Made by a program: the position numbers and the translations under genes. From the IMG/VR virus record IMGVR_UViG_3300029448_000003, positions 1-64,000 of that record: a DNA stretch of 64,000 nt; one strand, 5' to 3'. Position 1 is the stretch's first letter; every line of letters begins with the position of its first letter. This DNA is from a virus. The notes under the pieces were generated by a model. It made no database searches. It was not told the DNA's origin and saw nothing but the letters and a program-made list of their open reading frames with translations. This document shows positions 483-63,169 of this stretch, in pieces.

Positions 483-494
483 GGAAAAAATTTA

Positions 495-1431: not shown

Positions 1432-1433
1432 TT

Positions 1434-1855: not shown

Positions 1856-1862
1856 TGATTGT

Positions 1863-3620: not shown

Positions 3621-3624
3621 AAAA

Positions 3625-4041
3625 ATGACAAACAGAAAACTTGGTAGTTGGGAATTACCACAACCCATAGACATAAAAGAAGAAAATGAATGGCAGGCTA
3701 TTCCAAGAGTAGCAAAGACAGTACCTTTTGGGTATATAGTAGACCCTGAGAACGAACATATACTAAGACCAGTACCAACAGAACTTGATGCGTTAGCAAA
3801 AGCAAAAGAACATTTAAAACAATATTCGTATCGACAGGTATCTAACTGGTTATCTAAATTTACAGGGAGAAGTATATCCCATATAGGATTAATGAAAAGA
3901 GTAAAGCGTGAGCAAAAACGTAAGAACCAAGCTAGAACTCTCCGTGTCTGGGCAGAATATGCAGAAAAGGCAATCCAAGCGGCGAAAAAACTTGAAGAAG
4001 AAAGAACCGGTAGTCAAACAACAATTGCAGCCAACGGCTGA
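3625..4041 (+). CDS. HTH protein before TerL, second small-terminase candidate
   Basis: The start is placed at the ATG after the previous stop because genome B begins its homologue (61306-61731) at the equivalent residue (MT-R--G-W-LPQP). The central part (LDALAKAKEHLKQYSYRQVS followed by NWLSKFTGRSISHIGLMKRV) reads as a resolvase/terminase-type helix-turn-helix, and the tail is a basic helix. The last 134 nt overlap the start of TerL in another frame, and this overlap is unusually conserved between genomes. It probably binds DNA during packaging. Confidence 0.65.
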   Translation: MTNRKLGSWELPQPIDIKEENEWQAIPRVAKTVPFGYIVDPENEHILRPVPTELDALAKAKEHLKQYSYRQVSNWLSKFTGRSISHIGLMKRVKREQKRKNQARTLRVWAEYAEKAIQAAKKLEEERTGSQTTIAANG

Positions 4042-5461: not shown

Positions 5462-5466
5462 ATTAA

Positions 5467-35809: not shown

Positions 35810-37732
35810 TTAACTCCTTTCTAAATCAACGACTTCACATACACCTGCAGTACAAGCTAGTTCCTTGTGACCTGTAGTGTTATCGTCTTTTTCGTAGTTA
35901 GATAGTTTAGACCAATCAATATCACTTGTTGGCATTGCTTTAAGAAACTTCGTGTACTCTTCTTTTGAAATTTCTTGGTATGGTGCTTGTGCATATGTAT
36001 GGTCACTGTGTGGTAAAAAACTAATGCCTGAAATATCATCAAAGTTTTTATACACCCAAGCTCCTACATCTAACCATTCATTATCTCTTACAGTTATTGT
36101 AACAGATGGTTTATGCTCACACCAATGCTCTTGATATACCTTCCATATTTCTAAATGTTCTATGGCTGATAATTCATTTCTTGTAATTGCACCCTTTGGT
36201 GCTTTCATTGGAAAGCTGAAGACAGTTGTACTGTCAGGCTTTGTAATGTCAGGTTCGTTTGGAATACCTTCGTCTTTCATTAACTGTGTTAGTGGGTCTT
36301 TGTTATCAGCACGAACAGTACGTATGTAGTATTTACTATGTCGAGGATGAATACCACTTGCACTATCCACAAGCTGCGAAACTGTTCCACTAGGTTTAAC
36401 ACAAGTAATAGCTGTTGATTGGTTAATGCCAAACTTTTCTGCCCATATTTTATTTGTTTCGACTGCTGTTTGTTTTAACTCTTCTAAAAGTTTTGGTACA
36501 GTTTTAAGATTATACATGCTAACATTATCCATTATACCGGTAAGTGAAACACCTAACAAACGTTCTTCTACTGTGTTGTGTTGCCATATCTTACGTAGGT
36601 ATTTGAAATCTGTTAATGTAGATTGATACGTACCCAGTATTGTAGCTATCTTTATTTTATCCTTTATCATTTCAATTGTATCATCACTACGAACAACTAC
36701 TTCAGTAAGGTTACAGAATTGGCTAGGTCTTAGTATGATTTCGGAACAAGGGTTACACCCAAACTCATGGGCTGTATCTCGTCTACCTGATTTACCAGCT
36801 TGTTTCAATGCTGAACTTCTATTGAAGATACCTCGTTCCCCTGATTTACTTTCAACTAAAGATAACCATTCACGCATAAATGTCTCCATCTGTGGCTTAC
36901 TTTTGTAGGCTACACTATTATTAGACAATGCTCTATGTCCATCTGTCTCCCACCATTGACCAGCTTTTGCGTGTCTCATTTGGTCATCATTTAAATTTGA
37001 AAGACTGATGAGGGCAGAACGTCTTACCCCACCAACGACCACTACCTCACCAATCTTACACATTATGTCATGGCATTCAATAGGATAAAGCCTTCTCCCC
37101 CTTGCATTCTTAAATACCCTAACACAAAACTTATATAAATCTATTAATGGTGCAGGTCCAGATGCCCTACCACCAAACGTTTTTAACCTTGCACCTGCAG
37201 GTCTAACAGCTTCTACATCTAACGTAGGTATCTGACCTACAGATAACATAGCAAGTAACTCTCGTAATGCTCTTGCCCAACCTGAACGTGAGTCTGCAAC
37301 TTTAATTACTGTATTACTCTTTTCAAAATGTTCATTAATTGCAGGTATCTTATCTACATTATAGCGTTCAACACTAAAACCTACACCTGTTCCACACATA
37401 AGAATATACATTGCTTCGTCAAAAGCACGTAGGTCATCTACTACCAAGTAGGAACAATTATAACCTGCAACATTACACTTATCCAATGCTTTACCTGAAG
37501 TCATTAAGGCTCTCATGCTTGGCATAACTTTTAGTGTCTTAATATAATTAGCAATCTTGGGAGTAATATAACTAAGACTATTACTTGTACGAAACAATTT
37601 AGGATACTTGTTAATCATATTGTCAACGTATCTATTGACAGTTTCATCCCAAGTTTCTCTTCTGTTTTCTTCCTCAAGCCACCTTGTGTAGCGTGATGTA
37701 GCTATAAAATTTTGATAATTATCCATCGTCAT
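35810..37732 (-). CDS. nrdJ: Class II (adenosylcobalamin-dependent) ribonucleotide reductase
   Basis: The enzyme reduces ribonucleoside triphosphates to deoxyribonucleotides for phage DNA synthesis. Aligned on the L. leichmannii type, the redox cysteines are Cys93 (in YNCSYL) and Cys340. The thiyl radical cysteine is Cys329 with Asn327 and Glu331 in the CNPCSEI loop, and the C-terminal shuttle pair is Cys627/Cys632 (CTAGVC). The length (640) is shorter than the 739 of the bacterial model. No class I small subunit or class III activase is present. Dependence on host-supplied B12 is implied by the class. Confidence 0.92.
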   Translation of the reverse strand: MTMDNYQNFIATSRYTRWLEEENRRETWDETVNRYVDNMINKYPKLFRTSNSLSYITPKIANYIKTLKVMPSMRALMTSGKALDKCNVAGYNCSYLVVDDLRAFDEAMYILMCGTGVGFSVERYNVDKIPAINEHFEKSNTVIKVADSRSGWARALRELLAMLSVGQIPTLDVEAVRPAGARLKTFGGRASGPAPLIDLYKFCVRVFKNARGRRLYPIECHDIMCKIGEVVVVGGVRRSALISLSNLNDDQMRHAKAGQWWETDGHRALSNNSVAYKSKPQMETFMREWLSLVESKSGERGIFNRSSALKQAGKSGRRDTAHEFGCNPCSEIILRPSQFCNLTEVVVRSDDTIEMIKDKIKIATILGTYQSTLTDFKYLRKIWQHNTVEERLLGVSLTGIMDNVSMYNLKTVPKLLEELKQTAVETNKIWAEKFGINQSTAITCVKPSGTVSQLVDSASGIHPRHSKYYIRTVRADNKDPLTQLMKDEGIPNEPDITKPDSTTVFSFPMKAPKGAITRNELSAIEHLEIWKVYQEHWCEHKPSVTITVRDNEWLDVGAWVYKNFDDISGISFLPHSDHTYAQAPYQEISKEEYTKFLKAMPTSDIDWSKLSNYEKDDNTTGHKELACTAGVCEVVDLERS

Positions 37733-39026: not shown

Positions 39027-39879
39027 TTTTATATTCTTCTTTTAAATATACATAAGATACAATCTTTGGCTCTTTTGCTTGCGACATAACGGCAGGCTTT
39101 TCTTCTAAACCTTCCCAACATGCATGACGAAAATCGCAGAACGTGCAACTCTTACCTAATACTTTATTCCCAGTAAGTTTACCTCTGAATGTTTCATCTA
39201 CAGCATCAAAGCATCTTTCAAATTTATTCTTATCAAGACGTTCAAACTTATCTTTTAATACAGTATATTCTTTTTTAATGTCAAGTTCTTTTGCAGAAAC
39301 ATATTTAAACTCTGCATTATTTTTATTGATAACCCACCAGCCACCAACATTTTTCTTGGATGCTTTAGCATACCCAGCTAACTGTCCTACGTAACCAAAG
39401 CTATCTCCATCTTTTACTGTTTCAAAGTCTCTAAACTTATTTGTGTAAGACCACGTAGATGCAGATTTAATATCGTCTACATGGTCATCTATTACAAGGT
39501 CATACGTTCCTTTTATCTTATTACCTTTGACGTTAAGGGATACTTCCTTACTATCGGTATATGATACACCAGCTTCAGTTAGTACACCCTTAAAAACAGC
39601 TTCAACAATATCACCCAGCATCATAAGCATTACACGATTAGCTGATGGTCTTATTGCAGTCTCTGGTCTATTCTTTTGAAACCATAGTTGACAGTAAGGT
39701 CTGCCGATATTTGACATACGTAATCGAAACTTCTCTTCTCTAGGAGAGAATTGTTTCTTTAATGCATCACGTATGTGAGACACAACCTGTTCGATTGTGT
39801 CATCACTCATACCGACAAGACCCCTTGTCGCTTTATCAAGGTAACTGTATACCTGTAATTCAGCTTTAGATGAAGCCAT
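39019..39879 (-). CDS. Cas4/RecB-like PD-(D/E)XK exonuclease with probable Fe-S cluster
   Basis: The nuclease core shows Asp127 (GTYDLVI) and Asp136-x-Lys138 (DDIKSA), followed by a QLAGYAKA helix (motif near Gln166-Tyr170). Four cysteines (Cys63, Cys245, Cys248, Cys254) are placed as in Cas4/AddB nucleases, one before and three after the core, which suggests a 4Fe-4S cluster. It probably acts as a DNA exonuclease in recombination or host DNA breakdown. No Cas genes are near. It overlaps the SSB-like gene by one base. Confidence 0.82.
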   Translation of the reverse strand: MASSKAELQVYSYLDKATRGLVGMSDDTIEQVVSHIRDALKKQFSPREEKFRLRMSNIGRPYCQLWFQKNRPETAIRPSANRVMLMMLGDIVEAVFKGVLTEAGVSYTDSKEVSLNVKGNKIKGTYDLVIDDHVDDIKSASTWSYTNKFRDFETVKDGDSFGYVGQLAGYAKASKKNVGGWWVINKNNAEFKYVSAKELDIKKEYTVLKDKFERLDKNKFERCFDAVDETFRGKLTGNKVLGKSCTFCDFRHACWEGLEEKPAVMSQAKEPKIVSYVYLKEEYKNV

Positions 39880-40781
39880 TAAAATGGAATTTCATCATCT
39901 AATGTTTTGTCTACCTTAACAAAGTCTTCAACTAATTGTGAGTCCTCATTAGATAGTTCGGCAGGTTTAGCTTTATCTTTCCACGCACCAAAAACATATA
40001 TATTATAATTCTCAATCCATTGCATAAAGTCACCAAACCTTTCTTGCACTTCATCTGTTACCTCATTTACATCTTTACCCAATGTACCTGATGGTAAGTA
40101 GAACGTACCAATATTTCCTTTGCGTTCAGTAGAACCTAAAGCAATTTCATATTGGACAGGAAGATGTTTCAAACTTCCTACTTTACTAATAGGCTCACCC
40201 ATAATCTTAAAGGCATCCCTATTATCAATCTCCCAAATAAATGGAAGGTCAACTACATCCTCAAGTTCTGAACCATCTTCTCCTAAAACATTTTTAGCAG
40301 TAAGAGTACCTATAAAAACACGTACACGTTTAATACTCTTTAGTAGTTTCTTAGTACTATCAGGTAAAGCGTTATAGTCTTTAATCCAACCTGCAGGTTT
40401 ACCACAATTAAATCCACCTGCATTATCTTTAAGGTCAGTATTTAAATTGTCAGCCATTACAGTCTTAACATAGAAAGCTCTACCACTTGAGTTATCAAAC
40501 TTCTTGTACATAAATCTTTGTACGTAAGGTCTAATCGTTACCTCTTCTGAATAGAATGTAGCATCATTAGCAATGTCCTCTATTTTATAAGAGCCACCAT
40601 TTACTATGGCAGCTTGGGTTTTCTTACCCTTTACTTCTACTTCACCCATAATTGGTGAGTGTTGTAGTTTAAGTCTAGCTAATTGTAGTGTAGCTTTCTT
40701 AGTAGTTAAATCGGCATTCATACCCATAGCTTGAGCCATGCCATTAAAGTTATTTATATCAATTGTATTTACATTATTCAT
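39879..40781 (-). CDS. Probable single-stranded DNA-binding protein
   Basis: No standard SSB fold is recognisable by eye, but the C-terminus ends VDKTLDDEIPF, the acidic hydrophobic-tipped tail by which SSBs recruit replication proteins. The middle is beta-rich and the protein lies between polymerase and nuclease genes. A functional analogue of T7 gp2.5 or another phage SSB is therefore likely. The inference rests on tail and context. An AAAGGAG site precedes the ATG. Confidence 0.65.
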   Translation of the reverse strand: MNNVNTIDINNFNGMAQAMGMNADLTTKKATLQLARLKLQHSPIMGEVEVKGKKTQAAIVNGGSYKIEDIANDATFYSEEVTIRPYVQRFMYKKFDNSSGRAFYVKTVMADNLNTDLKDNAGGFNCGKPAGWIKDYNALPDSTKKLLKSIKRVRVFIGTLTAKNVLGEDGSELEDVVDLPFIWEIDNRDAFKIMGEPISKVGSLKHLPVQYEIALGSTERKGNIGTFYLPSGTLGKDVNEVTDEVQERFGDFMQWIENYNIYVFGAWKDKAKPAELSNEDSQLVEDFVKVDKTLDDEIPF

Positions 40782-40813: not shown

Positions 40814-42835
40814 TTAAGCAACGTCTTTGGTGTCAAGCCAATTGTCACCAATCTTTGCTTCAAGTAATAATGGTACATTAAAACATACTTTAAAATGTTT
40901 GTCAACAAGTTTTTTTAATTTACCATTAATATTTTTAATGACCCCCAACACAACATTGATTTCAGTTGGATGTACATCAATAACAATACTATCATGTACT
41001 GTATTCACTATACATGATTGATATTGTTGTAATTCCCTATCCATTTCTAACAGAGTTATTGGTACAATATCTGCTGTAGCAAAACTTTGAACCGGGAAAT
41101 TCTTTATCTGCGTAAAATAACTAACTGTACCATTAGACCTACGTTCTACATTTGGAAATGAAAACTGTCTGCCTGATGGTGTTGTAATCTTACGTTCTTC
41201 TATAGCTTCTTTAGCCAATCTGGCATGCCAAAGTGCGATTCCTTTATACTTTTTCGTGAACTGTTTATAATACGTTGCTTCAGCAACTGACCTCCCAAAC
41301 CCCGTAGCTCCGTAGAGTGGTGCAAAGGTGTGGGCTTTAGCTTCTTGCCTACTAATCTTTTGACCACCCTCAGTAATAACTTTGGCAGTGTAGTTATGTA
41401 CGTCAAATCCATTATCTATCTCCTTCATTGCTGTTTCATCTTGTGCTAAATATGCAGCAGTTCTAAACTCTAACTGTGCAAAGTCTGCTTCTAATATCTT
41501 GCCACCTTCCCAACGTGAAATAAATACACGCTTTACAGGAAACGTACCACCTCTTGGCATGTTCTGCATGTTAGGGTCTGCTCCACTAAATCTACCTGTA
41601 GCTGTTCGATGTTGTAATAATCGTACATGTAGTTTATTATCTGATTTTATGTTGGTCTTTATCCCATCAACAAAAGACGATAGGTAACTATCCAATGCTG
41701 ACAACCTAATAACCTTAGATAAAAACTCATGTGCTTTGTCCATACCTTTTTGTTTAGCTACACTAGATAGAAAAGCAAGGTTGCTTTTGCTTGTGCTCCA
41801 CCCATGTGCTGAAATCCATTTAGAAGTAGGTGCAGTAAACTTCATACCTGCAATCTCCTTCGTAGGAATAAACAAGTATCCTTGAGCATTACAGCTAATA
41901 CACCTTGACTCTTTAGCAAAAGGAGAACCATCCTTTTTAATCTTTCGTATCTTACCACTACCATAACAAGTCTTACATTGTACGGCATTTGTTTTATATA
42001 AAACTGTAGAGTGTTCTCTGATGCTACGTTTGTATTCTGTATCTCCCATGTAAGGACTAAATATAATGGGCCATTCCTGCTTGTTCATAGGCTTACGACT
42101 ATAGATTAACCATGATAGTTGTTCAGGACTATTTAAATTAATAGGAGTGTCACCCATAAAATCTTTAACTTCCTTCTGTAAAAACTTTTCTATGTCCATC
42201 TTCTCTTGAGTAAATTCTTTTCTTACTATTTCAAGTGCATCATTATTTACTGCAAAACCACGTTGATATATATGTGCCAAACAGATAGCAACACGATTGG
42301 TTAGTAGTACACTACTGACAAGACCTCTTAGTTCTCTCTTCTTTAATCGTTCACATATCTTTGTGGCAAGTTCTTCGGTAGCATGTAGGTCACTCTTTAA
42401 ATATGAAACCAATTCATCATGTGGTATCTCATCTACACCTACTCCTTTCTTTAGATATTCTTTCATTGTGTCTTGCTTCTTAGTATTTAATTGGTATCGT
42501 TCAGCACATGCTTCCAATGAGAGAGGTTCTTTCTGTCCACATTGTAGTATGTATTCACCTAACATGGTATCAAATACATTGCCATCATATTTAAAACCAC
42601 ACTCCCATAACCACAATAAATCGTGAACAATATTGTGTCCAATCATACATGTAGTCTTATCAAGTATAGGTTGCAAGGCATCCCAGTTATCATACTCATC
42701 TGACATAATCATTGTGTTACCTTGCTCGTCAATACAACCAACCATAACAAGTTTATTTGTAGGTTCAAATGGGTCTAAGTGTAGCTTGTCATTGCGTTTA
42801 GTAACAGTATTCTCTACATCTAACACCAATCTCAT
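40814..42835 (-). CDS. A-family DNA polymerase with 3'-5' exonuclease and DnaJ-type zinc finger
   Basis: This is the replicative polymerase. The N-terminal proofreading domain has Asp6/Glu8 (LDVENT), Asp72 (HNIVHD) and Tyr145-x3-Asp149. Polymerase motif A is Asp451 (DFAQLEFR), motif B is Arg496, Lys500, Phe504, Tyr508, and motif C is His614-Asp615 (VHDS). Between exonuclease and polymerase, residues 287-294 (CKTCYGSG) and 312-319 (CISCNAQG) form a two-pair zinc motif like the central domain of DnaJ, the feature known from phage HMO-2011. The T7 thioredoxin loop is not seen. The stop overlaps nothing; the start overlaps the helicase stop (ATGA-like). Confidence 0.95.
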   Translation of the reverse strand: MRLVLDVENTVTKRNDKLHLDPFEPTNKLVMVGCIDEQGNTMIMSDEYDNWDALQPILDKTTCMIGHNIVHDLLWLWECGFKYDGNVFDTMLGEYILQCGQKEPLSLEACAERYQLNTKKQDTMKEYLKKGVGVDEIPHDELVSYLKSDLHATEELATKICERLKKRELRGLVSSVLLTNRVAICLAHIYQRGFAVNNDALEIVRKEFTQEKMDIEKFLQKEVKDFMGDTPINLNSPEQLSWLIYSRKPMNKQEWPIIFSPYMGDTEYKRSIREHSTVLYKTNAVQCKTCYGSGKIRKIKKDGSPFAKESRCISCNAQGYLFIPTKEIAGMKFTAPTSKWISAHGWSTSKSNLAFLSSVAKQKGMDKAHEFLSKVIRLSALDSYLSSFVDGIKTNIKSDNKLHVRLLQHRTATGRFSGADPNMQNMPRGGTFPVKRVFISRWEGGKILEADFAQLEFRTAAYLAQDETAMKEIDNGFDVHNYTAKVITEGGQKISRQEAKAHTFAPLYGATGFGRSVAEATYYKQFTKKYKGIALWHARLAKEAIEERKITTPSGRQFSFPNVERRSNGTVSYFTQIKNFPVQSFATADIVPITLLEMDRELQQYQSCIVNTVHDSIVIDVHPTEINVVLGVIKNINGKLKKLVDKHFKVCFNVPLLLEAKIGDNWLDTKDVA

Positions 42836-44055
42836 ACAGTATACCTCGCTAGTCTATAGTCAAGTTCACAATGTACACTACCATGCCAACCTGATAATTT
42901 ATTTTTAACTATATTAAGATGTCTTTGTGCATCCTCTTCATCTTGTCCTTCTACTTGTGGGTTCTTTGCTATAAGAACCATTAGGTCTGCTTCAGCAGCC
43001 TTACCAGTTCTACTACCTTCCATCATACTCTGATTAAGTACCACCTTGCCCTCTGCTTCAGCACTTAACTGTGACATATATAATACTGCACATTCATATT
43101 GCTTTGCAATCTGTCTTGCATGTATAGCACAGGCTTTAAGTGCTTCGTCTGGTCTAGTAAACCCTTTGAACGTAGCAAACTTATCACCCATATCTAATAC
43201 AACAATATCAGGCTTAACAGATTTAACTGCTGACTCAACCCAATTCATGTCACTCATTGTGACATCTTTAATACGTATCTTGTCCTTAACCTTTTGATAG
43301 ATTGAGTGTGCTTTGGTTGGGTCTTGTTTTACTTGAGGTAAGGTAAGACCTGTTGCAGCTGTAAGGTAACGAGCAGCTACTCTGTGATAGCTTTCTTCAT
43401 TACATAATACAATACAGTTTGCACCTTGTTCTGCAAACCCACCCGGACCTGCTATCAATGATGCATGAAAAGATGTTTTACCTGTGTTAGGTCTAGCACC
43501 TATCTCTATTAGATGTCCTGCATTAATACCTTCTACTCGTCTACACAATGAGGGTATATTAAATGTCCACCTTGCTTCCAAATCATTCTTTGCAAGAAGA
43601 GTTTCAATTGTAATATCATCCCATTCAATATTCATGTTGGGAGTAAAGTCATCTGCATATTGCTCCAAGAGATTACGCAAAGGCTCAAGTGAACTCTTTG
43701 CACCATTAACATAATCAAACCCTAAGTTTGCTATGTCTTCTCCAATAACTTGTTGGAATAACTTTGACAACACTTCTTGTGCTACATCACTACCCATAGG
43801 TTTCTCTTTCTTTATTTGCATAAAGAGAGAACCATATGCATTCTTCTGTGCCGTACTCATTGAGGGATTACTTGCTATAAATAATGCTTCAACCTCATCA
43901 GGCGATACAGTACGGCTATATCTATCCATCGCCTTATCTAATGTTTGTTTTATCTTTTGTACATCCTTACTAAATAATCTGTTAGGACATCTTGAACCTC
44001 TATGCTCATCATAGAATGATTTGTCCATAAGACTTCTTACTAATGATAGTTCCAT
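42832..44055 (-). CDS. DnaB-like replicative helicase
   Basis: The RecA-type motor unwinds DNA ahead of the polymerase. Walker A is at about residues 186-195 (GARPNTGKTS) and Walker B at 283-288 (DIVVLD), with the later SQLSAEAEGK and EGSRTGKAAEADL segments typical of DnaB/T7 gp4 helicase cores. Residues 1-140 form a helical N-terminal domain. The primase is a separate gene upstream that overlaps the helicase start by 16 nt, unlike the fused T7 gp4. Confidence 0.9.
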   Translation of the reverse strand: MELSLVRSLMDKSFYDEHRGSRCPNRLFSKDVQKIKQTLDKAMDRYSRTVSPDEVEALFIASNPSMSTAQKNAYGSLFMQIKKEKPMGSDVAQEVLSKLFQQVIGEDIANLGFDYVNGAKSSLEPLRNLLEQYADDFTPNMNIEWDDITIETLLAKNDLEARWTFNIPSLCRRVEGINAGHLIEIGARPNTGKTSFHASLIAGPGGFAEQGANCIVLCNEESYHRVAARYLTAATGLTLPQVKQDPTKAHSIYQKVKDKIRIKDVTMSDMNWVESAVKSVKPDIVVLDMGDKFATFKGFTRPDEALKACAIHARQIAKQYECAVLYMSQLSAEAEGKVVLNQSMMEGSRTGKAAEADLMVLIAKNPQVEGQDEEDAQRHLNIVKNKLSGWHGSVHCELDYRLARYTV

Positions 44056-44831
44056 ACCATCTCCTTTAAGTTGTTAATATCGGTTTCTTTTCTATACTTT
44101 AAGTCATCAGTTATACGCAAAACTTTTACTTTGTCAACCCATCCTCTTAATTCTTTTGCAATTTGCAAATTCTTTTTAAGAGCATCGGGGTCAAGTGCCA
44201 CGATAACTTTTTTATAATGACTTAAAAAATCTTTGTGTTCGTGTAGTAGGCTTGTACCCAATAGGGCTACACCTGCCATACCATACTCTGAAACAACACA
44301 TGCACTTATACAATCTTCTACTACAACACATGTATCATTACGTTCATTCGTTAGGGAATTGTAAACTCCTGATACAAAAGGTACTTTACTTTTACCATAA
44401 CGTTTCCATTTAGGAAGTCTGCTTCCTATGCTTCTACCAACGGCATCTATTACCATGCCCTCGTCATTAAATATTTTAAAGACTGCTCTATTTTCCCGGA
44501 CATCATGCATACAATAGTTTTCATATATATATTTATATTCATTATTATGTAACACACCATGTTTAAAATCCACAATGTATTCAGGAAAACTAAATGTCGT
44601 TCCTTCGACTTGCCTTTTATTAAATGCAGAACGTATCTGTTCTATTGACATGTTCACTTTAACTGAACCACCTACAGAACAACCAGCTTTGTAACAGTTG
44701 TACAATACTTGTCCCATATTTGTGGACACAGTAAATGTATGCTTACCACCACATGATGGACAGTCCATACGTTTTGTGCTGTCATAAGATAGCTCGTCTG
44801 CAATTTCGTTTACATATTTCTGTATATCCAT
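44040..44831 (-). CDS. DNA primase (zinc ribbon plus TOPRIM)
   Basis: The primase makes RNA primers for lagging-strand synthesis. A zinc-binding motif is formed by Cys24-x2-Cys27 (with His31) and Cys46/Cys51. The TOPRIM core has Glu172 (CVVVEDCISA) and the Asp214-x-Asp216 pair (VALDPDALKK). The middle part contains the WKRYGKSKVPF motif common in T7-like primases. The 263-residue protein matches the primase half of T7 gp4 in length. The gene overlaps the helicase. Confidence 0.9.
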   Translation of the reverse strand: MDIQKYVNEIADELSYDSTKRMDCPSCGGKHTFTVSTNMGQVLYNCYKAGCSVGGSVKVNMSIEQIRSAFNKRQVEGTTFSFPEYIVDFKHGVLHNNEYKYIYENYCMHDVRENRAVFKIFNDEGMVIDAVGRSIGSRLPKWKRYGKSKVPFVSGVYNSLTNERNDTCVVVEDCISACVVSEYGMAGVALLGTSLLHEHKDFLSHYKKVIVALDPDALKKNLQIAKELRGWVDKVKVLRITDDLKYRKETDINNLKEMVWNYH

Positions 44832-47632: not shown

Positions 47633-48805
47633 TTATTTTACTCCTTCAAATATGTGGGCAATCACATCTACTGTCCACCCATTGCCTAACATCTTATAAC
47701 GTTGGGTGTTGGAGATGGTATCCCACTCTTGTTTTTTATCATTATATTTTCCAAACTGTGTGTAATTATCAGGCACAGTTTGTAGTCTTTCACACTCCAA
47801 TGGTGTTAGCTTTCTATATAATTCTTTCTGTACTACAACATTGTCCTTGTGGACAGTTGTCAAACAGTTTGACTTATCGCTATCACTTACTTCTAACTGT
47901 CGTGTAAATGGTAGTTCAAGTTGGTCATCCTTTCGTACTCCATTCTTATCAAGCCTACGATTAACAAGCCTACCAATGGCTACCTTTGGTTGTCTATGCC
48001 CACCCTGCATAGTCGTGAGTGTAGGACTCTTCCCATTAGGTGAGTATACTCGCTTGATAATGTCGTACCCCTTGATGTTGGTAGCATTACCTACTTGTAT
48101 GGGTTTCTTTACATAGGTAGGTATCTGTCCTTTGTACATAGATGCAGTAAGACAGTTAGCCTTTGGGTCATCAACAGACTTTACCATATCACCTCTACGT
48201 CTACCACACCATTCATTCTCAAGATAGTTTGGTATCTTGTGGAAAGGTAGGTTTTCAAGTATGTCACTAATAACAATGCCCTTGTCCTCTATCTGTGGTA
48301 TAGGTATCTGCTCGTACTCCTTTGATTCATTTAAGAATCCAAACCAATATAGCCTATGTCTATTCTGTGCTGATGCATCAGCAGAGTTAATCATCTGTGG
48401 TTCAAAGCCAATGAACTCTGATATAACATCTTGAGATTCTTTTTTCATGCGAACATTCTCCAAGAGAATATACTTTGGTTGTAGCATATCTCGTATACGT
48501 ATGAACTCAAAGAATAGTTTACTGCGTGGGTCATCAAAGTTTAACTGTTTGCCTGCAAAACTAAAACCTTGACATGGCGAACCACCCATAAGCAAGTCAC
48601 ACTCTATATCCCATTTACTTGCCGTACTAGAAGTAAACTTTGTAACGTCACCTAGTTGTACTGTGTTTGGATAGTTTTTCTGTGCCACTTGCATTGGATA
48701 GTTTTCTATCTCGCAAGCATAATAATTCCTATAGTCAATGCCCACTCTATTGAGTGCAATCTGACCACAAGACATACCATCAAATAAACTGACTACATCT
48801 TTCAT
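47633..48805 (-). CDS. dcm: DNA (cytosine-5) methyltransferase
   Basis: The enzyme transfers a methyl group to C5 of cytosine in a specific DNA site. Motif I is SLFDGMSCG, motif IV GGSPCQGFSF with catalytic Cys78, motif VI LENVR (Glu116), and motif VIII QNRHRLYW. The C-terminal motifs IX and X (PLECERLQTVPDNYT; MLGNGWTVDVIAHI) are present, so the protein looks complete. No cognate restriction gene is adjacent, so protection against host enzymes or modification of phage DNA is more likely than a restriction system. Confidence 0.93.
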   Translation of the reverse strand: MKDVVSLFDGMSCGQIALNRVGIDYRNYYACEIENYPMQVAQKNYPNTVQLGDVTKFTSSTASKWDIECDLLMGGSPCQGFSFAGKQLNFDDPRSKLFFEFIRIRDMLQPKYILLENVRMKKESQDVISEFIGFEPQMINSADASAQNRHRLYWFGFLNESKEYEQIPIPQIEDKGIVISDILENLPFHKIPNYLENEWCGRRRGDMVKSVDDPKANCLTASMYKGQIPTYVKKPIQVGNATNIKGYDIIKRVYSPNGKSPTLTTMQGGHRQPKVAIGRLVNRRLDKNGVRKDDQLELPFTRQLEVSDSDKSNCLTTVHKDNVVVQKELYRKLTPLECERLQTVPDNYTQFGKYNDKKQEWDTISNTQRYKMLGNGWTVDVIAHIFEGVK

Positions 48806-55669: not shown

Positions 55670-55879
55670 ATGTGGATTCCAGTAATAACAATACTATGGG
55701 CATTAGGTGAAAATGCTACGTGGGTAAATTTTCCAATGGTAAATTTTCCATTTACAACACAAGATAGATGTCAAGAATATGTAGCAAGGGTTAGAAGTAG
55801 TATAACTAAAGACCCTCAATATTTAGAAGGGTATAGTGTATGTGTAGAGATACCTAGTAAAAAAGGAGAAGCAACATGA
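55670..55879 (+). CDS. Small probably exported protein, 69 aa
   Basis: The hydrophobic start (WIPVITILWALGENATWVNF) is followed by NFPFTTQDRCQEYVARVRSS and a YSVCVEIP end, with cysteines placed as in the 60-aa neighbour. An AGAGGAAAGAAAAT ribosome region precedes the ATG. Its stop overlaps the pstS start (ATGA), so it is translated with PstS. Function unknown. Confidence 0.55.
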   Translation: MWIPVITILWALGENATWVNFPMVNFPFTTQDRCQEYVARVRSSITKDPQYLEGYSVCVEIPSKKGEAT

Positions 55880-56916
55880 ATAAAATGATTTATACATTTA
55901 GTATATTTTTAACTTTAGTAGGCACTATATCTAGTGCTGTCGCAAGAGAACAAATAAGGATAGTCGGTTCTAGTACTGTTTATCCATTTTCAACAATCGT
56001 TGCAGAGAAATTTGCACAACAAGGAAATCCAGCTCCTATTGTAGAATCAACAGGTTCAGGTGGTGGAATGAAATTATTTTGTGCTGGTGTAGGTTTAGAA
56101 CATCCAGATATTACAAACGCATCAAGAGCAATTAAAGATAAAGAAGCTACAACTTGTAAGAAAAATGGTGTTGCATTTACAGAGTTTGTTGTAGGTAATG
56201 ATGGACTTGCATTTGCAAATTCAAACGAAGGACAAAAATTTAGTATTTCTATTGCACATATAGCAGCGGCACTTGCAAAAGAACTCCCTAAAGATGGGTC
56301 TATGCAAGATAATTTTTTGATGACTTGGGATGAAGTAGATGCTTATGTGCATAAACAAATGGGTCATCCGATTTTAAATTTACCAAATCAAAAGATTGCA
56401 ATTATGATACCACCACCAACCTCTGGAACAAGAGATGCAATGGGTTCTTTGTTTATGAAGAATGGTTGGAAGAAACTAGGGTTATATTCTGGTGACACGA
56501 AAGGTGGATATAAAGTATTAAGAGAAGATGGTGTTGCAATAGAGATGGGCGAAAACGATAATTTAATAGTAGAAAAATTAGTTGCAGATTCAAATTTATT
56601 TGGTGTTTTTGGTTATTCCTTTTTTGACCAAAATAGAGATAAAGTCCAATCCTCTATAATTGATAATATAGAATTAACTTTTGATAATATTGCATCATAT
56701 CAATATCCGGGTGCTAGACCATTATTCTTTTATGTAAAGAATGACCATATTTATGCAATACCAAACATGTTAAGTTATGTTGAAGAATTTGTGTCAGAGA
56801 GGGCTATGAGTATTAATGGATATTTATTTCCAGCAGGGCTTGTGCCTTTATCAAATGATGACTATGCAAAACAAGTTGATGCATTATCAACATTAAAGGA
56901 AAACAAACATGATTAA
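55876..56916 (+). CDS. pstS: Phosphate-binding protein PstS (auxiliary metabolic gene)
   Basis: PstS binds phosphate in the periplasm for the host PstCAB transporter. A signal peptide covers about residues 1-23 (cleavage near SSAVA-RE). The ligand-binding loops are present: GSSTVYPF (residues 31-38), STGSGGGMKLFC and TSGTRDAMG. The length (346) is normal for PstS. Other Pst genes are absent, so it must work with the host transporter. It follows two small exported-looking proteins and precedes the lysis genes of the next genome copy. Marine phages are known to carry pstS. Confidence 0.93.
   Translation: MNKMIYTFSIFLTLVGTISSAVAREQIRIVGSSTVYPFSTIVAEKFAQQGNPAPIVESTGSGGGMKLFCAGVGLEHPDITNASRAIKDKEATTCKKNGVAFTEFVVGNDGLAFANSNEGQKFSISIAHIAAALAKELPKDGSMQDNFLMTWDEVDAYVHKQMGHPILNLPNQKIAIMIPPPTSGTRDAMGSLFMKNGWKKLGLYSGDTKGGYKVLREDGVAIEMGENDNLIVEKLVADSNLFGVFGYSFFDQNRDKVQSSIIDNIELTFDNIASYQYPGARPLFFYVKNDHIYAIPNMLSYVEEFVSERAMSINGYLFPAGLVPLSNDDYAKQVDALSTLKENKHD
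56834..56914 (+). repeat. 81-bp direct repeat of window start; genome A/B junction
   Basis: These 81 bases at the 3' end of pstS are identical to positions 1-81. Downstream the two regions stay related but diverge. The repeat spacing (56,833 bp) equals one phage genome. The identity may extend to the left of the window, so its real length is unknown. Confidence 0.9.
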
Positions 56917-57040
56917 TTGGGATAAAATTAAATTTGATATGTGGAATAAAAGATTTGGCGAAGGAACTAATTTTGATTTAGACTATGGTAAGTTACTTAT
57001 TATAGGTCTATTAGTGTATCACATCTTTTTTCAAGGTTAG
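56909..57040 (+). CDS. Small membrane-like protein, 43 aa (genome B)
   Basis: This is the genome B counterpart of the ORF at 76-207, with the same start inside pstS and the same hydrophobic end (KLLIIGLLVYHIFF). Nearly all base changes are synonymous, which supports translation in both copies. Function unknown. Confidence 0.6.
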   Translation: MINWDKIKFDMWNKRFGEGTNFDLDYGKLLIIGLLVYHIFFQG

Positions 57041-57042
57041 CT

Positions 57043-57315
57043 ATGGTTTTAAAAAGACATCAAAATCCTTCTGGTGGTTTAAACGCTGCAGGTCGAGCAC
57101 ACTTTAAAAAGAAAGACGGCAGTAATCTTAAACCACCTGTAAAAGCAGGAGTTAATCCTAGAAGAGTTTCTTTTGCTGCACGATTTGCAGGTATGAAAGG
57201 ACCTATGAAAAAACCTAATGGTGAACCTACACGTAAGGCATTAGCGTTAAAAGCATGGGGTTTTCGTAATGAGCAATCAGCGAGAAATTTCGCAAACAGG
57301 CACAAAAAAACATGA
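57043..57315 (+). CDS. Small basic phage protein with 'NPSGGLNAAGR' motif (genome B)
   Basis: The 90-residue protein has the blocks NPSGGLNAAGRAHFKKKDG, NLKPPVKAGVNPRRVSFAAR and GPMKKPNGEPTRKALALKAW. This set is known from short proteins of many phages (NPKGGLNAKGR...LKPPV...). Genome A has an unrelated basic gene in this slot (210-482). Function unknown. It overlaps the next gene by 4 nt. Confidence 0.75.
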   Translation: MVLKRHQNPSGGLNAAGRAHFKKKDGSNLKPPVKAGVNPRRVSFAARFAGMKGPMKKPNGEPTRKALALKAWGFRNEQSARNFANRHKKT

Positions 57316-57590
57316 CAAACGCAAAAAAAGTAATTAAAAAAGTAGTTAAGGGATTAAAAAAAGCTAGTAAATCTCATGCAGGTCAAGCTAAATCATTAGC
57401 GTCTTTAAAATTAAATAAAGGTGGTAGTACTGTAAATAAAGCAGGTAACTATACAAAACCTACTATGCGTAAGAGTTTATTTAATTCTATTAAAGCAGGT
57501 GGTAAGGGTGGTAATCCGGGACAATGGTCTGGAAGAAAAGCTCAAATGTTAGCCAAACAATATAAAGCTAAAGGTGGGGGATACCGATAG
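57312..57590 (+). CDS. Small basic protein with GGKGGNPGQWSGRKAQ motif (genome B)
   Basis: The homologue of 495-782, with the same C-terminal block (KPTMRKSLFNSIKAGGKGGN) and lysine-rich N-terminal part. One residue block is one amino acid longer in the middle. The stop overlaps the GTG of the next gene. Function unknown. Confidence 0.75.
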   Translation: MTNAKKVIKKVVKGLKKASKSHAGQAKSLASLKLNKGGSTVNKAGNYTKPTMRKSLFNSIKAGGKGGNPGQWSGRKAQMLAKQYKAKGGGYR

Positions 57591-57838
57591 TGGCATTAGC
57601 TAAACCACAAAGGTCTTTAAAAGCATGGGGAAAACAGAAGTGGCGAACAAAATCAGGGAAGCCATCCAAGCAAACAGGAGAAAGATACTTGCCTACAGCG
57701 GCAATAAAAGCTCTAACACCTGCCCAGTATGCGGCAACGACAAAAGCAAAACGGCAAGGAACAAAAAAGGGCAAACAAGCTGTGAAGCAACCGAAGTCAG
57801 TTGCAAGACAAACAGCAAAATATAGGAGATTTACATAG
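57590..57838 (+). CDS. Small basic phage protein, 82 aa (genome B)
   Basis: The homologue of 782-1030, of identical length, with the TGERYLPTAAIKALTPAQYA block. It starts with GTG instead of ATG, in the same overlap position. Base changes against genome A fall mainly in third positions of this frame. Function unknown. Confidence 0.75.
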   Translation: MALAKPQRSLKAWGKQKWRTKSGKPSKQTGERYLPTAAIKALTPAQYAATTKAKRQGTKKGKQAVKQPKSVARQTAKYRRFT

Positions 57839-58242
57839 TGCTTGGACTAAGTTCATTATTAGGACCTATTGCTAATATAGCAGGAACGTATATACAAGGA
57901 AAAGTAGACAAGGCAAAAGCCGAAACAGAAGTAAAAGTTGCTCGTGCAAAAGCTGAAGCAAAAGTTTATGAAACAGAAGCAACCTCAAGTATGTTGAATG
58001 AGCAAAGCCTTACTCAACAAATGGCAGGAAGTTGGAAAGATGAATTTTGGACTTTAATCTTTGGAGGGATATTAGTATGTTGTTTTTTACCTTGGACACA
58101 AGAGTATGTTAAAGAGGGGTTTCTTTTCCTCGAAGAAAATACTCCTAATTGGTTTTCTACTTGCCTATATATTTGTATTGGCAGTAGTTTTGGATATAGG
58201 TTCGGTAAGACAGGTCTTCAATTAATAAATAAGAAGGGGTAA
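57838..58242 (+). CDS. Holin of the 3TM type (genome B)
   Basis: The 134-residue homologue of 1030-1431, with the same charged N-terminal helix, SWKDEFW motif and SSFGYRFGK segment. It starts with GTG at the stop of the previous gene. Expected role is to open the inner membrane for the lysozyme at 59364-59819. Confidence 0.75.
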   Translation: MLGLSSLLGPIANIAGTYIQGKVDKAKAETEVKVARAKAEAKVYETEATSSMLNEQSLTQQMAGSWKDEFWTLIFGGILVCCFLPWTQEYVKEGFLFLEENTPNWFSTCLYICIGSSFGYRFGKTGLQLINKKG

Positions 58243-58245
58243 TCT

Positions 58246-58497
58246 ATGTCTTGTGAGTGTGGAAATGAAAATTGTAAATGTGATGGTGACTTAGTTCCAG
58301 ATAAATTAGCATACCAAGTAAACAAAAGGAGAATGGCATGGGTTTTAATTATTCTTATGGGTATTACTACTATCCTAACTTTGGCTTACCCAAACAGACT
58401 AGCCGAAGCAGAAAGTATACTTATGACACAATATATTTCGATGTGTGGACTGGTTGGAGCATATTTCGGATTTAGTGCATTGAGTGGTAAAAAATAA
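58246..58497 (+). CDS. Small two-TM protein with Cys-rich N-terminus (genome B)
   Basis: The homologue of 1434-1688. The cysteines of the N-terminus (CECGNENCKCDGD) are kept in number though not in exact spacing, and the two hydrophobic segments are nearly identical. Long runs of the DNA are unchanged from genome A (for example around 58322-58369). Possible holin or antiholin. Confidence 0.65.
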   Translation: MSCECGNENCKCDGDLVPDKLAYQVNKRRMAWVLIILMGITTILTLAYPNRLAEAESILMTQYISMCGLVGAYFGFSALSGKK

Positions 58498-58503
58498 TGG
58501 CTT

Positions 58504-58746
58504 ATGGAAGGTATCTTACAATATTGGGAACAGTTAATTTTTTTCTTGACAGCACTTGTAGTAGCTGTTAAACTACACACAGATGTTACAACACTCAAGA
58601 AAGATGTAGAAAAACTAGAAGCCGATTGCCAAAAGGCAAACGATAAGATACAGGATAACTTTGTAAGTTCGGTAAGAACTGAAAGTGCCGTAAAAGAAAC
58701 AGAGAAAAAAATTGAATCTCTATTTCAGTTACATAACAAAGATTAA
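58504..58746 (+). CDS. Membrane-anchored coiled-coil protein (genome B)
   Basis: The homologue of 1863-2114 with the same TM segment and coiled coil; only the last residues differ (LFQLHNKD). In B it comes before, not after, the small charged gene, so the order of the two genes is swapped. Spanin-like by topology. Confidence 0.65.
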   Translation: MEGILQYWEQLIFFLTALVVAVKLHTDVTTLKKDVEKLEADCQKANDKIQDNFVSSVRTESAVKETEKKIESLFQLHNKD

Positions 58747-58751
58747 AGTTT

Positions 58752-58919
58752 ATGAAAAATGGTTGGGATAACCACGAAGATACTTTTGAAGAAACATTAC
58801 GTAGAGAAATGTTAAAATGGAAAAAGTTATATTTTCTTCTACAAGATGATATGAAAGAATTAACAAAAGCATATTACAAAGTTCTCAAAGAGAATGAACA
58901 ATTAAAAAGGAAACACTAA
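58752..58919 (+). CDS. Small charged protein, 55 aa (genome B)
   Basis: The homologue of 1685-1855 (GWDNHEDTFEETLRREM, then a helical basic end). It is located between the membrane/coiled-coil gene and the 147-aa gene here. It starts 5 nt after the previous stop. Function unknown. Confidence 0.6.
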   Translation: MKNGWDNHEDTFEETLRREMLKWKKLYFLLQDDMKELTKAYYKVLKENEQLKRKH

Positions 58920-58920
58920 T

Positions 58921-59364
58921 ATGGGCATAGCAAGTAAACTAGCAAGAGCAATAGCAAAAAAAATACCTAAGAAAAAAGTAGATTCAAAAGGTAATACTAA
59001 AAGCATATTTAGAGGGCAGAGTACTAATCAAGCAAAGACACAAAAACCTACAGAAAAACAAAGAAGATACAGAGTTGGACAAGCAAAGGGATTTCTTGCT
59101 GGTGCAGGTACTGTGTTAACTGTTGGTTCAGCCGTGGCTCTGTATAAAAAAGATGCAACTTTTAGATCACGTTTAGATGCAGCACAGAAAGCAGGGAAAG
59201 CTACAGTTAATTATAAAGGAAGTACCTATAAAGTACCAAAAAATAAAATACCTCTACCTGTTTCAAAACCCAAAACAACACCTAGTAAGCTTAAAAAGGG
59301 TAGCAGGATTAGTTATGCTGAAAGATTTAAAGAAATAGAAGATGAAAAAAAAGGAAAGAATTAA
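58921..59364 (+). CDS. Basic protein with one hydrophobic segment, 147 aa (genome B only)
   Basis: The N-terminal part is Lys-rich (ARAIAKKIPKKKVDSKGNTK), a hydrophobic stretch lies at about 62-76 (FLAGAGTVLTVGSAVALY), and the end (ISYAERFKEIEDEKKGKN) resembles the 66-aa genome A protein at 2648-2848. It is placed between lysis genes, before the lysozyme, and overlaps its start by one base. It could be a membrane-linked lysis or virion accessory. Confidence 0.6.
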   Translation: MGIASKLARAIAKKIPKKKVDSKGNTKSIFRGQSTNQAKTQKPTEKQRRYRVGQAKGFLAGAGTVLTVGSAVALYKKDATFRSRLDAAQKAGKATVNYKGSTYKVPKNKIPLPVSKPKTTPSKLKKGSRISYAERFKEIEDEKKGKN

Positions 59365-59819
59365 TGGAAACACTTACAGATAGATTAAGAGAAGAGTTAA
59401 AAACAGATGAAGGTTGTAAGTATGAAGTATATTTAGATCACTTAGGTTTACCCACATTTGGTATCGGACATTTAATTACTGACAAAGACCCAGAACACCA
59501 AATGGGAATGGGAACACCTGTCGATGAAATAAGAGTTAATGAAGCATTTGAACAAGATGTGCATGTAACATTAGATGAATGTAGAAAGCTATTTAATGAT
59601 TGGGATAATTTACCTGAAGAAGTAAAACTAATTACAGCTAACATGATGTTTAATATGGGTAGACCTAGATTATCAGGTTTTAAAAAAATGATACAGGCTA
59701 TTAGCGATGGTGATTGGTTAGAAGCAGCAATTCAAATGAAAGATTCTAGATGGTACAAGCAAGTAACAAACAGAGCCGACAGGCTAATAAGCAGAATGAA
59801 AGCTGTAAATTTACAGTAA
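59364..59819 (+). CDS. T4-type lysozyme (GH24 endolysin, genome B)
   Basis: The genome B endolysin has the same length (151) and catalytic residues Glu16, Asp25 and Thr31 as the copy at 2114-2569. Differences are scattered conservative changes. It cleaves peptidoglycan once the holin opens the membrane. Confidence 0.93.
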   Translation: METLTDRLREELKTDEGCKYEVYLDHLGLPTFGIGHLITDKDPEHQMGMGTPVDEIRVNEAFEQDVHVTLDECRKLFNDWDNLPEEVKLITANMMFNMGRPRLSGFKKMIQAISDGDWLEAAIQMKDSRWYKQVTNRADRLISRMKAVNLQ

Positions 59820-59965
59820 GCGAAATTGAAAAACAAAAAAATAGAGAACGGCATAAGCATAATTTGCGTAAATTATTTAAGCCTATTAGTAGACAATTTA
59901 AAGGGAGTAGCACATGGCAGAAATGCCCTATAACAACAACCAAGAGCCAACAGGTGAACAACTAG
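59750..59965 (+). CDS. Small basic protein overlapping lysozyme 3' end (genome B)
   Basis: The homologue of 2500-2655: same ATG inside the lysozyme gene, same EKQK-R--H--NL-KLFKP core beyond the lysozyme stop. Its C-terminal end runs 52 nt into the next gene and is not shared with A. Function unknown. Confidence 0.45.
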   Translation: MVQASNKQSRQANKQNESCKFTVSEIEKQKNRERHKHNLRKLFKPISRQFKGSSTWQKCPITTTKSQQVNN

Positions 59966-60942
59966 GTATTCCGACACCACCTAGACCTCCTATGGGTACG
60001 GCTACACCAGATGCTGTAGCACCAACACCTGTAGCAACACCTATGCCAGATCAAATGCAAACAGTATCAACACCTAGAGAACAAACAGCCGTTGCAACAC
60101 GAGATTGGCAAGCAGAAATTAATGACTTAAAAAGCCGTATGGAAGAGCAAAAAGCACAGTATATAATGCAGATTGAAATGCTAAAAGCTCAATTACAAGC
60201 TCAACAGAAACCAGCACCTGTTCAAGATGTAGAAGCTGTTCAAGAAGTTGTAACACCAATGCCAACACAACCTGTACAGCCACCACGACAAGGACCTACT
60301 GCTGATCCTAGACCGGCTGTAACACCAATGCCAGCAAAGCCTATCATGCCAATGCTACCAACACTACCTGTACAGCCTAATCCTAGAACTACTGGACAGC
60401 TAGAACTTCTTAAAAAGAAACTTGCTGAACAAAGAAAAACATTTGGAACTATGACACCAGAGCAAAGACGTAATTTTTCTGCTAATCAGAGTATACAAAA
60501 AATAATGTCTAACACTATGCTAGACCCAGTAGAACAAAGAAAAAGAGTACGGCAGGTTAAACTAGATTTAGCACATGCAAGACAAATAGAGCAAATGAGA
60601 AAACAAAATGTGCCACCTACAGTTATTATGGATAGATCATTTAGATACAACCTACAAAAAGCTAGACGTAATGCCGTACCCAATGAGCAAATAAGATTAA
60701 TGATTATGCAACATCAACACAGAAAAAAAATGTTTAGGGCACAAAAAGCAGGTGTGTCACGTAAAGAACTAATGAATATGCAAGCTAGTTTTCAAGTAGA
60801 TGTGCTAAACTATAAAAACCGATTAGCGATGGCAACTAAAAAAATGGATGCACGTACACGTAACAGAGATAGGTATAGGTCAATGTATGAGAGATGGAAA
60901 CAGCAAAGAGCACAGGCAAATAGACCAAGGAATGTAAGATGA
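59914..60942 (+). CDS. Pro/Gln-rich protein with basic helical C-terminus, 342 aa (genome B only)
   Basis: Residues 8-50 and 95-155 are rich in Pro, Thr and Gln with repeated TPMP-type motifs (PTPVATPMPDQ; VTPMPTQPVQP; VTPMPAKPIMPM). A coiled coil lies between them (NDLKSRMEEQKAQYIMQIEM). The C-terminal half is helical and very basic (RKQNVPPTVIMDRSF; RKKMFRAQKAGVSRKELMNM). No counterpart exists in A at this place. It may be a virion or DNA-packaging accessory; function unknown. Confidence 0.6.
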   Translation: MAEMPYNNNQEPTGEQLGIPTPPRPPMGTATPDAVAPTPVATPMPDQMQTVSTPREQTAVATRDWQAEINDLKSRMEEQKAQYIMQIEMLKAQLQAQQKPAPVQDVEAVQEVVTPMPTQPVQPPRQGPTADPRPAVTPMPAKPIMPMLPTLPVQPNPRTTGQLELLKKKLAEQRKTFGTMTPEQRRNFSANQSIQKIMSNTMLDPVEQRKRVRQVKLDLAHARQIEQMRKQNVPPTVIMDRSFRYNLQKARRNAVPNEQIRLMIMQHQHRKKMFRAQKAGVSRKELMNMQASFQVDVLNYKNRLAMATKKMDARTRNRDRYRSMYERWKQQRAQANRPRNVR

Positions 60943-61316
60943 GTAGACAACTAACAGAAAGACAACAAAAATTTATGGATGCCTTATTTAATGATGCTAA
61001 TGGTAATATTACAAATGCTAAAATAATTGCAGGGTATTCTACAAAAACAAATAATCAAGAAATTATTAAGACTTTAAAAGATGAAATAATGGAAGCAACA
61101 CAACTGTATATGGCAAGTAATGCTCCACGAGCTGCTGTAGCAATAGCTGATAGTTTAGATAACCCAACAGAGTTAGGTATTAAAGACAAGATGATTGCTG
61201 CAAAAGAACTGTTAGATAGAACAGGTTTAATAAAAACAGAAAAGGTACAAGTAGAAGCATCAGGTGGTGTAATGCTTATGCCGACTAAGAAACCAATAGA
61301 GGATAATGACGAGTAG
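60939..61316 (+). CDS. Terminase small subunit, probable (genome B)
   Basis: The homologue of 2848-3225, with the same length (125) and start (QLTERQQKFMDALF, AKIIAGYS). It overlaps the preceding gene by 4 nt and the next by 11 nt. Expected to bind the packaging site. Confidence 0.7.
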   Translation: MSRQLTERQQKFMDALFNDANGNITNAKIIAGYSTKTNNQEIIKTLKDEIMEATQLYMASNAPRAAVAIADSLDNPTELGIKDKMIAAKELLDRTGLIKTEKVQVEASGGVMLMPTKKPIEDNDE

Positions 61317-61731
61317 AAGTATAGGTAAATGGGATTTACCACAACCACTAGACATGAAAGAACAAAATGAATGGATTGCGATACCAAGAATTGCAAGAAC
61401 TGTTCCTTTTGGTTATGAAATAGACCCTGAAAATGAATACATTCTTAGACCCATACCTCGTGAGTTAGATGCTTTAGAAAAAGCAAAAGAACACTTAAAA
61501 CAGTATTCATATAGACAGGTCGCAAATTGGTTAAGTACTTTTACTGAAAGGTACATTTCCCACATAGGATTAATGAAAAGAGTAAGACGTGAGCAAAAAC
61601 GTAAGAACAAAGCTAGAACTCTCCGTGTCTGGTCAGAATATGCAGAAAAGGCAATACAAACAGCGAAAGAAGAAGCAAAAAGACTTGAAAACCAAAGAAC
61701 AGGTAGTCAGCAAAGTATTAGCTACGGATAG
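61306..61731 (+). CDS. HTH protein before TerL (genome B)
   Basis: The homologue of 3625-4041, in B directly after the small terminase with no inserted gene. It keeps the HTH (YSYRQVANWLSTFTERYISH) and the basic tail. It overlaps TerL by 143 nt in another frame. Confidence 0.65.
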   Translation: MTSRSIGKWDLPQPLDMKEQNEWIAIPRIARTVPFGYEIDPENEYILRPIPRELDALEKAKEHLKQYSYRQVANWLSTFTERYISHIGLMKRVRREQKRKNKARTLRVWSEYAEKAIQTAKEEAKRLENQRTGSQQSISYG

Positions 61732-63160: not shown

Positions 63161-63169
63161 AGGAAAGTT

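Follow-up and report, generated by a model that had tools for sequence, protein, structure and literature searches.

The window analyzed here is a 64,000-nucleotide stretch of viral DNA (positions 1 to 64,000 of IMG/VR record IMGVR_UViG_3300029448_000003). Its minus strand carries an open reading frame at 40814 to 42835 that encodes a protein of 673 residues, with the ATG start codon at 42835; the plus-strand frame over the same positions contains many stops and is not open. Residues 1 to 170 (42326 to 42835, minus strand) form a 3'-5' exonuclease domain (DNA_pol_A_exo1, PF01612; E 5.3e-11, Pfam match to residues 25 to 164), in which D72, Y145 and D149 are invariant and D6 and E8 nearly so among 77 sequences; we take these to be the catalytic residues. 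Residues 343 to 667 (40835 to 41809, minus strand) match DNA_pol_A (PF00476, E 2.8e-51), which covers the second half of the thumb, the palm and the fingers. A match to the Pfam model DnaJ_CXXCXGXG lies at residues 282 to 321 and scores 20.7 bits, which is under the cut-off of 32.7.

The named relatives nearest to this protein over its full length are the polymerases of Roseobacter phage CRP-345 (62.7% identity) and Puniceispirillum phage HMO-2011 (62.1%). The polymerases of HMO-2011, the Roseobacter CRP phages and Pelagibacter phage HTVC033P have the same domains and a two-knuckle, DnaJ-like hairpin, and HMO-2011-type phage polymerases are 34 to 63% identical to the window's over 99 to 100% of its length. 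The features that define the HMO-2011 type are all found here: a family A polymerase with a 3'-5' exonuclease (from Pfam and from a structural match to Bst Pol I), at least 25% identity over 80% of the length (62.1% over 100% with HMO-2011), and two CXXCXGXG-like motifs between two Pfam domains, the second of which is without its first Gly. The protein is therefore a proofreading family A polymerase of the HMO-2011 type and one more member of a published architecture, which bears out the sequence-only reading of a family A DNA polymerase with a DnaJ-type zinc finger. The finger-bearing polymerase is already known as a hallmark of HMO-2011-type marine phages, which are dominant and broadly distributed in the oceans according to the accessible text of PMC9038755. 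In the portions available to us, PMC9038755, PMC6918029 and PMC8528129 describe HMO-2011-type polymerases with a partial DnaJ central domain and two CXXCXGXG motifs, and the first of these places that domain in all reported members. However, the available text of PMC9038755 and PMC8528129 gives the motif as a selection criterion for HMO-2011-type polymerases, so the published statement that all have it is partly circular. The Poorviridae were considered and dropped, since the part of PMC11654794 available mentions a separate DnaJ gene and no finger in the polymerase.

The polymerase belongs to a block of replication genes on the minus strand. Its start overlaps by 4 bases the gene for a DnaB-like replicative helicase (42832 to 44055; PF03796, E 1.7e-13; phrog_19, E 2.1e-40), which is preceded by the gene for a DNA primase (44040 to 44831; phrog_47, E 7.5e-19) with a Toprim domain and a probable zinc site, the Toprim and zinc-ribbon matches being below the Pfam cut-offs. 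HMO-2011 has the same primase-helicase-polymerase order, and its replication genes are syntenic with those of the window. The helicase precedes the polymerase in 6/6 HMO-type records viewed, and the primase precedes both in 5/6; the stretch viewed of CRP-2 contains no primase. Downstream of the polymerase are a 300-residue protein without a family match, a PD-(D/E)XK (Cas4-like) exonuclease and an endonuclease. The window also encodes a ribonucleotide reductase of the B12-dependent type (35810 to 37732, minus strand) and a C-5 cytosine DNA methylase (47633 to 48805, minus strand, as for the replication genes; E 4.3e-46).

The two knuckles of the finger are exactly where they had been reported from the sequence. 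The first, CKTCYGSG (CxxCxGxG), occupies residues 287 to 294 (41954 to 41977, minus strand) and provides C287 and C290; the second, CISCNAQG (CxxCxxxG), occupies residues 312 to 319 (41879 to 41902, minus strand) and provides C312 and C315. In 100,000 shuffles of the polymerase, two CXXC pairs 10 to 60 residues apart occurred 277 times and the full double motif never. In a non-redundant set of 98 sequences, C287, C290, C315 and G319 are present in 98/98, G292 in 97 and G294 in 94, and position 312 is Cys in 97 and His in 1. The window's polymerase has Ala at position 317, where 75/98 sequences have Gly, the first Gly of the second motif.

Sequences for this comparison came from searches of viral contigs with the whole protein and of viral and genome contigs with polymerase-half queries, which lie downstream of the finger. 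In the whole-protein search the matching words lie off the finger cysteines, yet ranking used the full length. Six loci below 33% identity (L083, L084, L085, L087, L088 and L255) and seven duplicates of reference records (L081, L082, L086, L089 and L091 to L093) were dropped, leaving 329 of 342 loci, which were aligned with 7 references (the window's polymerase and six phages) in 336 rows. Thirteen rows, all from polymerase-half queries, are truncated by the end of the contig, either inside the finger or before it is reached. The remaining 323 comprise the 7 references, 80 whole-protein loci, 234 polymerase-half loci and 2 loci in the record that contains the window (L090 and L094, which are the same gene). 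Because several of the 329 loci were paired from the same contig, frequencies are given for the non-redundant set, which was collapsed below 80% identity from 313 rows filled at seven chosen positions. Each search contributed its best loci, 80 at most, so distant relatives are under-sampled. Two further alignments contain all 76 listed loci plus the window (A3) and 59 of 90 loci plus the window (A5).

At the ligand positions, 322 of the 323 sequences that reach the finger are CCCC and one is CCHC. The whole-protein loci divide into 79 CCCC and 1 CCHC (n = 80), and the rows from polymerase-half queries are CCCC in 234/234. The sole CCHC row is locus L059 (3540 to 5546), an otherwise ordinary HMO-type polymerase on a single metagenome contig, in which the second knuckle is HxxC with a CAC codon. 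Since four ligand residues are retained in 323/323, a chance origin of the motif is excluded, and since one zinc ligand has been swapped for another and nothing else, the metal site is well supported. The pattern is that of a zinc finger, with four conserved ligands and substitutions only to ligand residues, and we infer from it that the finger binds one zinc. Loss of the cysteines in relatives, which had been named as the observation that would count against the finger, was looked for and not found in these 323 sequences, which suggests that the module is not dispensable.

The finger appears to be confined to this polymerase group at the sensitivity of tblastn. Among 50,697 phage records, 2,952 have a polymerase match, and the finger segment gave polymerase matches in only 12 HMO-type records (11 phages). 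In a first search, the other 22 of 34 records matched at E 0.3 to 9 through hypothetical proteins, proteins annotated as DnaJ or antitermination Q; in a second, only the 12 HMO-type records matched. The tblastn searches of the 50,697 records revealed this finger in no further polymerase. A palm search from StenR_269 returned a single locus.

In the predicted structure, strands at residues 280 to 286 and 320 to 328 form a stalk bearing the zinc hairpin (stalk and hairpin, residues 280 to 328; 41852 to 41998, minus strand). Compared with solved structures, the finger profile best matches residues 26 to 64 of E. coli DnaJ (1exk), which hold motifs 2 and 3 and one zinc site (E 3.9e-4), and all 60 finger segments scanned (60/60) match the Pfam DnaJ central-domain model at E ≤0.1. 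Together with the sub-threshold Pfam match, this agrees with the earlier description of a partial DnaJ central domain. Weaker profile matches are to RtpA (anti-TRAP; E 0.038, over 16 residues only), other DnaJ proteins (0.04 to 0.08), lambda-type Q (0.19) and UvrA (0.35). RtpA, Q and UvrA likewise have CXXC hairpins, at E-values ranging from weak to chance level, but are otherwise unrelated proteins. Pfam matches to GRXCR and Anti-TRAP were rejected, as they have little beyond the cysteine spacing in common with the finger.

The likeness to DnaJ raises the question of whether the finger serves to bring in the DnaK chaperone system of the host or as a redox switch. The 1exk match and the 60/60 agreement with the central-domain model favor such a role, and the accessible text of PMC9038755 mentions the part of DnaJ in lambda replication. 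However, DnaJ has four CXXCXGXG motifs and two zinc sites, whereas the polymerase has only two CXXC pairs, and DnaJ/Hsp40 proteins carry a J domain, which is absent from the Pfam matches to the polymerase up to E 1; the proteins are otherwise different. The finger is therefore half of a DnaJ zinc domain and not a DnaJ. In addition, the natural Cys-to-His replacement in one relative favors a simple role in metal binding over thiol switching. We consider recruitment of the chaperone system or redox switching very improbable.

The position of the finger in the polymerase fold was determined from alignments and from an AlphaFold2 model, which was built from 77 sequences with no template and without zinc, DNA or a partner, and which has a mean pLDDT of 91.7. 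The model has a normal Pol I fold, matching Bst Pol I at Z 33.4 (540 residues aligned, rmsd 3.0), Pol theta at Z 33.1 and the Klenow fragment at Z 32.3. The finger lies in an insert of approximately residues 248 to 345 (41801 to 42094, minus strand) at the tip of the thumb, in what we take to be the H1/H2 loop by the usual helix names. The N-terminal boundary is uncertain by about 5 residues, and local alignment to E. coli Pol I continues to residue 252 (Pol I 601). The stretch corresponding to residues 247 to 345 spans 95 to 126 residues in the 98 non-redundant sequences. In the model, a helix at residues 237 to 245 is followed by the insert and then by a helix at residues 350 to 362. The sequence-only reading had placed the finger between the exonuclease and polymerase domains; this holds for the Pfam matches only, and by alignment and model the finger is inside the thumb.

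Based on pairwise alignment, this is not the junction that T7 DNA polymerase uses. Residues 186 to 247 of the window's polymerase align with E. coli Pol I 537 to 593, with gaps of 4 and 1, while T7 residues 215 to 262 align with Pol I 528 to 575 and T7 residues 334 to 380 with Pol I 578 to 625. By these alignments, the thioredoxin-binding loop of T7 is inserted at Pol I 575/578, and the zinc insert comes one helix later, following the helix that matches Pol I ~578 to 593 and preceding the STSEEV helix near 608 (the ~608 boundary was read from a MAFFT alignment and the model, not from pairwise alignment). A T7-type insert at Pol I 575/578 is absent from the window's polymerase, which has at most one extra residue there in the pairwise alignment. 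A MAFFT placement of the T7 insert over the zinc finger was rejected, because T7 334 to 380 aligns directly to Pol I 578 to 625. The suggestion that the finger stands in place of the T7 thioredoxin loop thus finds no support in its literal form, since the insertion junctions differ. Like the HMO-type enzymes, the T7 gene 5 polymerase is a family A phage replicase with a thumb-tip insert, but its insert is without two CXXC pairs, whereas the HMO-type insert has four zinc ligands. As both inserts are on the thumb tip, a similar job is possible.

Other phage polymerases have an insert at the same thumb junction as the window's, as judged by landmark residues. In MEP402, QDWS535, ctOsX528 and ICP2, 69 to 74 residues lie between the landmarks, compared with 118 in the window's polymerase, and the insert is without paired cysteines (no Cys in three, one in ICP2). 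In a palm-only tree made by a quick method, the finger-free outgroups cannot be placed, having branches of 4.5 to 10 changes per column, and two of these outgroups branch within the finger group. Within the finger group, the finger loop is ~12 residues longer in 25/98 sequences, which make up all but one of the 26 rows of a single group (SH-aLRT 97); the exception, with a short loop, is L270. Three related phage polymerase genes are annotated in two parts, divided around the first palm motif (L083, 2992 to 5103; L088, 2983 to 4898; L087, 2989 to 5113), and an annotated ORF lies between the split polymerase genes in MEP402 (77 residues) and in ctOsX528 (68 residues).

In most sequences the finger is the most basic of five segments compared. 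Residues 278 to 332 have a net charge of +3 to +14 (median +9) and are positive in 98/98 sequences, whereas the median charge is -9.5 for the exonuclease, -1 for thumb residues 171 to 277, +5 for thumb residues 333 to 430, and -1 for the palm and fingers. In this five-segment comparison, from which 8 segments are missing in incomplete sequences, residues 278 to 332 have the highest charge per residue in 95/98 and the highest net charge in 85/98. Lys or Arg is present at positions 252 and 281 in 98/98, at 300 in 92/98 and at 298 in 87/98.

Our preferred interpretation, to which we give an even chance of being correct, is that the basic hairpin, stapled by zinc, carries the thumb tip out across the primer-template and so increases both affinity for DNA and processivity. 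The insert of about 100 residues would lengthen the thumb tip with a beta-stalk carrying one DnaJ-like zinc hairpin and a basic loop between the knuckles. The zinc would only staple the hairpin, and the hairpin, placed behind the active site, would reach across the duplex of primer and template and keep the enzyme on the DNA. The canonical Pol I fold around the insert and the position of the insert at the thumb-tip loop, from the model and the alignment, are consistent with this, as are the retained ligands, the charge of residues 278 to 332 and the absence of a thioredoxin-type insert. Comparable effects are on record for other family A enzymes: thumb truncation of E. coli Pol I lowers processivity and fidelity (Minnick 1996, as cited in the accessible text of PMC10061031), and according to the part of PMC9962433 available, residues of Pol theta thumb insert 1 that touch the minor groove matter for processive synthesis. 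That insert has 31 residues, and a zinc site is not mentioned in the same text. On the other hand, the finger shares its positive charge with thumb residues 333 to 430; binding of an acidic tail would also suit a basic surface; and insofar as the resemblance to DnaJ is informative, it favors binding to protein. What sequence and structure prediction establish is the architecture, the site of the insert, the four conserved ligands and the basic charge. In the literature covered, which is mostly open-access, we found no experiment on an HMO-2011-type polymerase and no account of how such a replicase stays on DNA, in keeping with the earlier remark that the function of the finger is not established.

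Zinc hairpins often merely stabilize a fold, and the insert might be a structural spacer in which zinc stabilizes an enlarged thumb tip that has no dedicated partner. The variation in insert length, from 95 to 126 residues, and the longer loop in a quarter of the set (25/98) fit this explanation, but the invariant or nearly invariant basic residues at 252, 281, 298 and 300 and the universal positive charge exceed what a spacer needs, and we regard it as improbable.

The gene next to the polymerase bears on a different explanation. The 300-residue product of 39879 to 40781 (minus strand) has no informative family or sequence match. Its predicted structure (pLDDT 87.4), compared with 990 chains, is most similar to the RB69/T4 gp32 core (Z 8.2, rmsd 3.9 to 4.1, 172/170 residues aligned); the next row is a phiC31 integrase-RDF fusion (Z 7.7), and apart from further gp32 entries the rest are at Z ≤3.5. 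A Foldseek search of the PDB with this model gave no hits at E 0.001, the first row being an unrelated channel. In a viral model library, 43 models match at E ≤0.001, most of them unnamed or uncharacterized, and one carries the name single-stranded DNA-binding protein and another that of a recombination directionality factor. The protein matches 8 of the 12 HMO-type records, in all 8 of which it is "hypothetical" in GenBank; the other 4 are unmatched. A figure legend in the accessible part of PMC6918029 lists "SSB" and does not give the phage group. On this moderate evidence, the product may be a gp32-type single-strand DNA-binding protein (SSB) with an acidic tail and a possible partner of the finger. 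Its tail ends in DDEIPF, which to our eye resembles the tip of bacterial SSB.

As the main alternative, the finger could be chiefly a protein dock, its basic loop binding the acidic tail at the C terminus of the phage's SSB, probably the product of this next gene, or of another replisome protein, in the manner of the basic patches of the T7 thioredoxin-binding domain. The adjoining candidate gp32-type gene favors this, as does the charge of the last 20 residues, which is net negative in 286/286 loci with a complete ORF (-11 to -1, median -6); of these, 117 match the window's protein directly, with charges of -11 to -3. There are also precedents in the available portions of PMC7699545, in which the thumb insert of T7 polymerase is the binding site for the SSB tail, and of PMC10061031, in which C. 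perfringens PolA is predicted to bind SSB via the thumb tip. However, the tail sequences vary widely (LAS, DVA, EVPF, YRV and others), while the finger loop is fairly constant, and only 18/286 loci have EIPF-like ends, of which 17 belong to the 117 that match directly. The other 169 loci were found with same-place proteins of other HMO-type phages, and in many rows of the alignment of this protein type (A4; 56 of 60 loci plus the window) such proteins share just 13 to 21% identity with that of the window. The SSB identity itself is a moderate fold match that neither the Foldseek search nor sequence comparison extends. A finger that is mainly a dock seems to us possible but doubtful. Under the preferred reading, in which the hairpin grips DNA, an acidic tail of the neighboring protein could additionally dock on the same hairpin surface.

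More speculatively, the thumb tip of phage family A polymerases may be a modular slot that has accepted at least three unrelated modules: the T7 loop and, at the next junction, either the cysteine-pair-free insert of the MEP402/ICP2 type or the HMO-2011-type zinc hairpin. The hairpin would then serve as an intrinsic processivity clamp, independent of any host factor, and also as a dock for the acidic tail of the adjoining gp32-like SSB. We hold this combined proposal to be rather unlikely as it stands. If a host-independent clamp is confirmed, the finger is a candidate graft for the engineering of family A polymerases, and with the thumb-tip placement, what had been a DnaJ domain without an assigned role becomes a specific and cheaply testable question. 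In the main texts of the mostly open-access literature covered, we found no report of the thumb-tip placement, of a ligand survey not selected on the finger, of the Cys-to-His variant or of the gp32-like neighbor.

The record from which the window is taken is 110,914 bases long and appears to consist of two HMO-2011-type genomes that have diverged and lie head to tail. Stretches repeated between the two are 77 to 93% identical (window positions 1 to 6276 and 56834 to 63988), and the genomes join at an exact repeat of 81 bases, with copies beginning at window bases 1 and 56834. The record contains a second polymerase gene (100230 to 102269), whose product is 71% identical to the first and has both CXXC pairs. 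The likelier reading of the record is that assembly fused two phages occurring together into a chimera; a tandem of natural origin is less probable. In the window, a plus-strand gene at 55876 to 56916 encodes a periplasmic binding protein (PBP_like_2, E 7.7e-35), possibly phosphate-binding, and two large plus-strand ORFs contain internal direct repeats (15783 to 16187 and 19059 to 19716).
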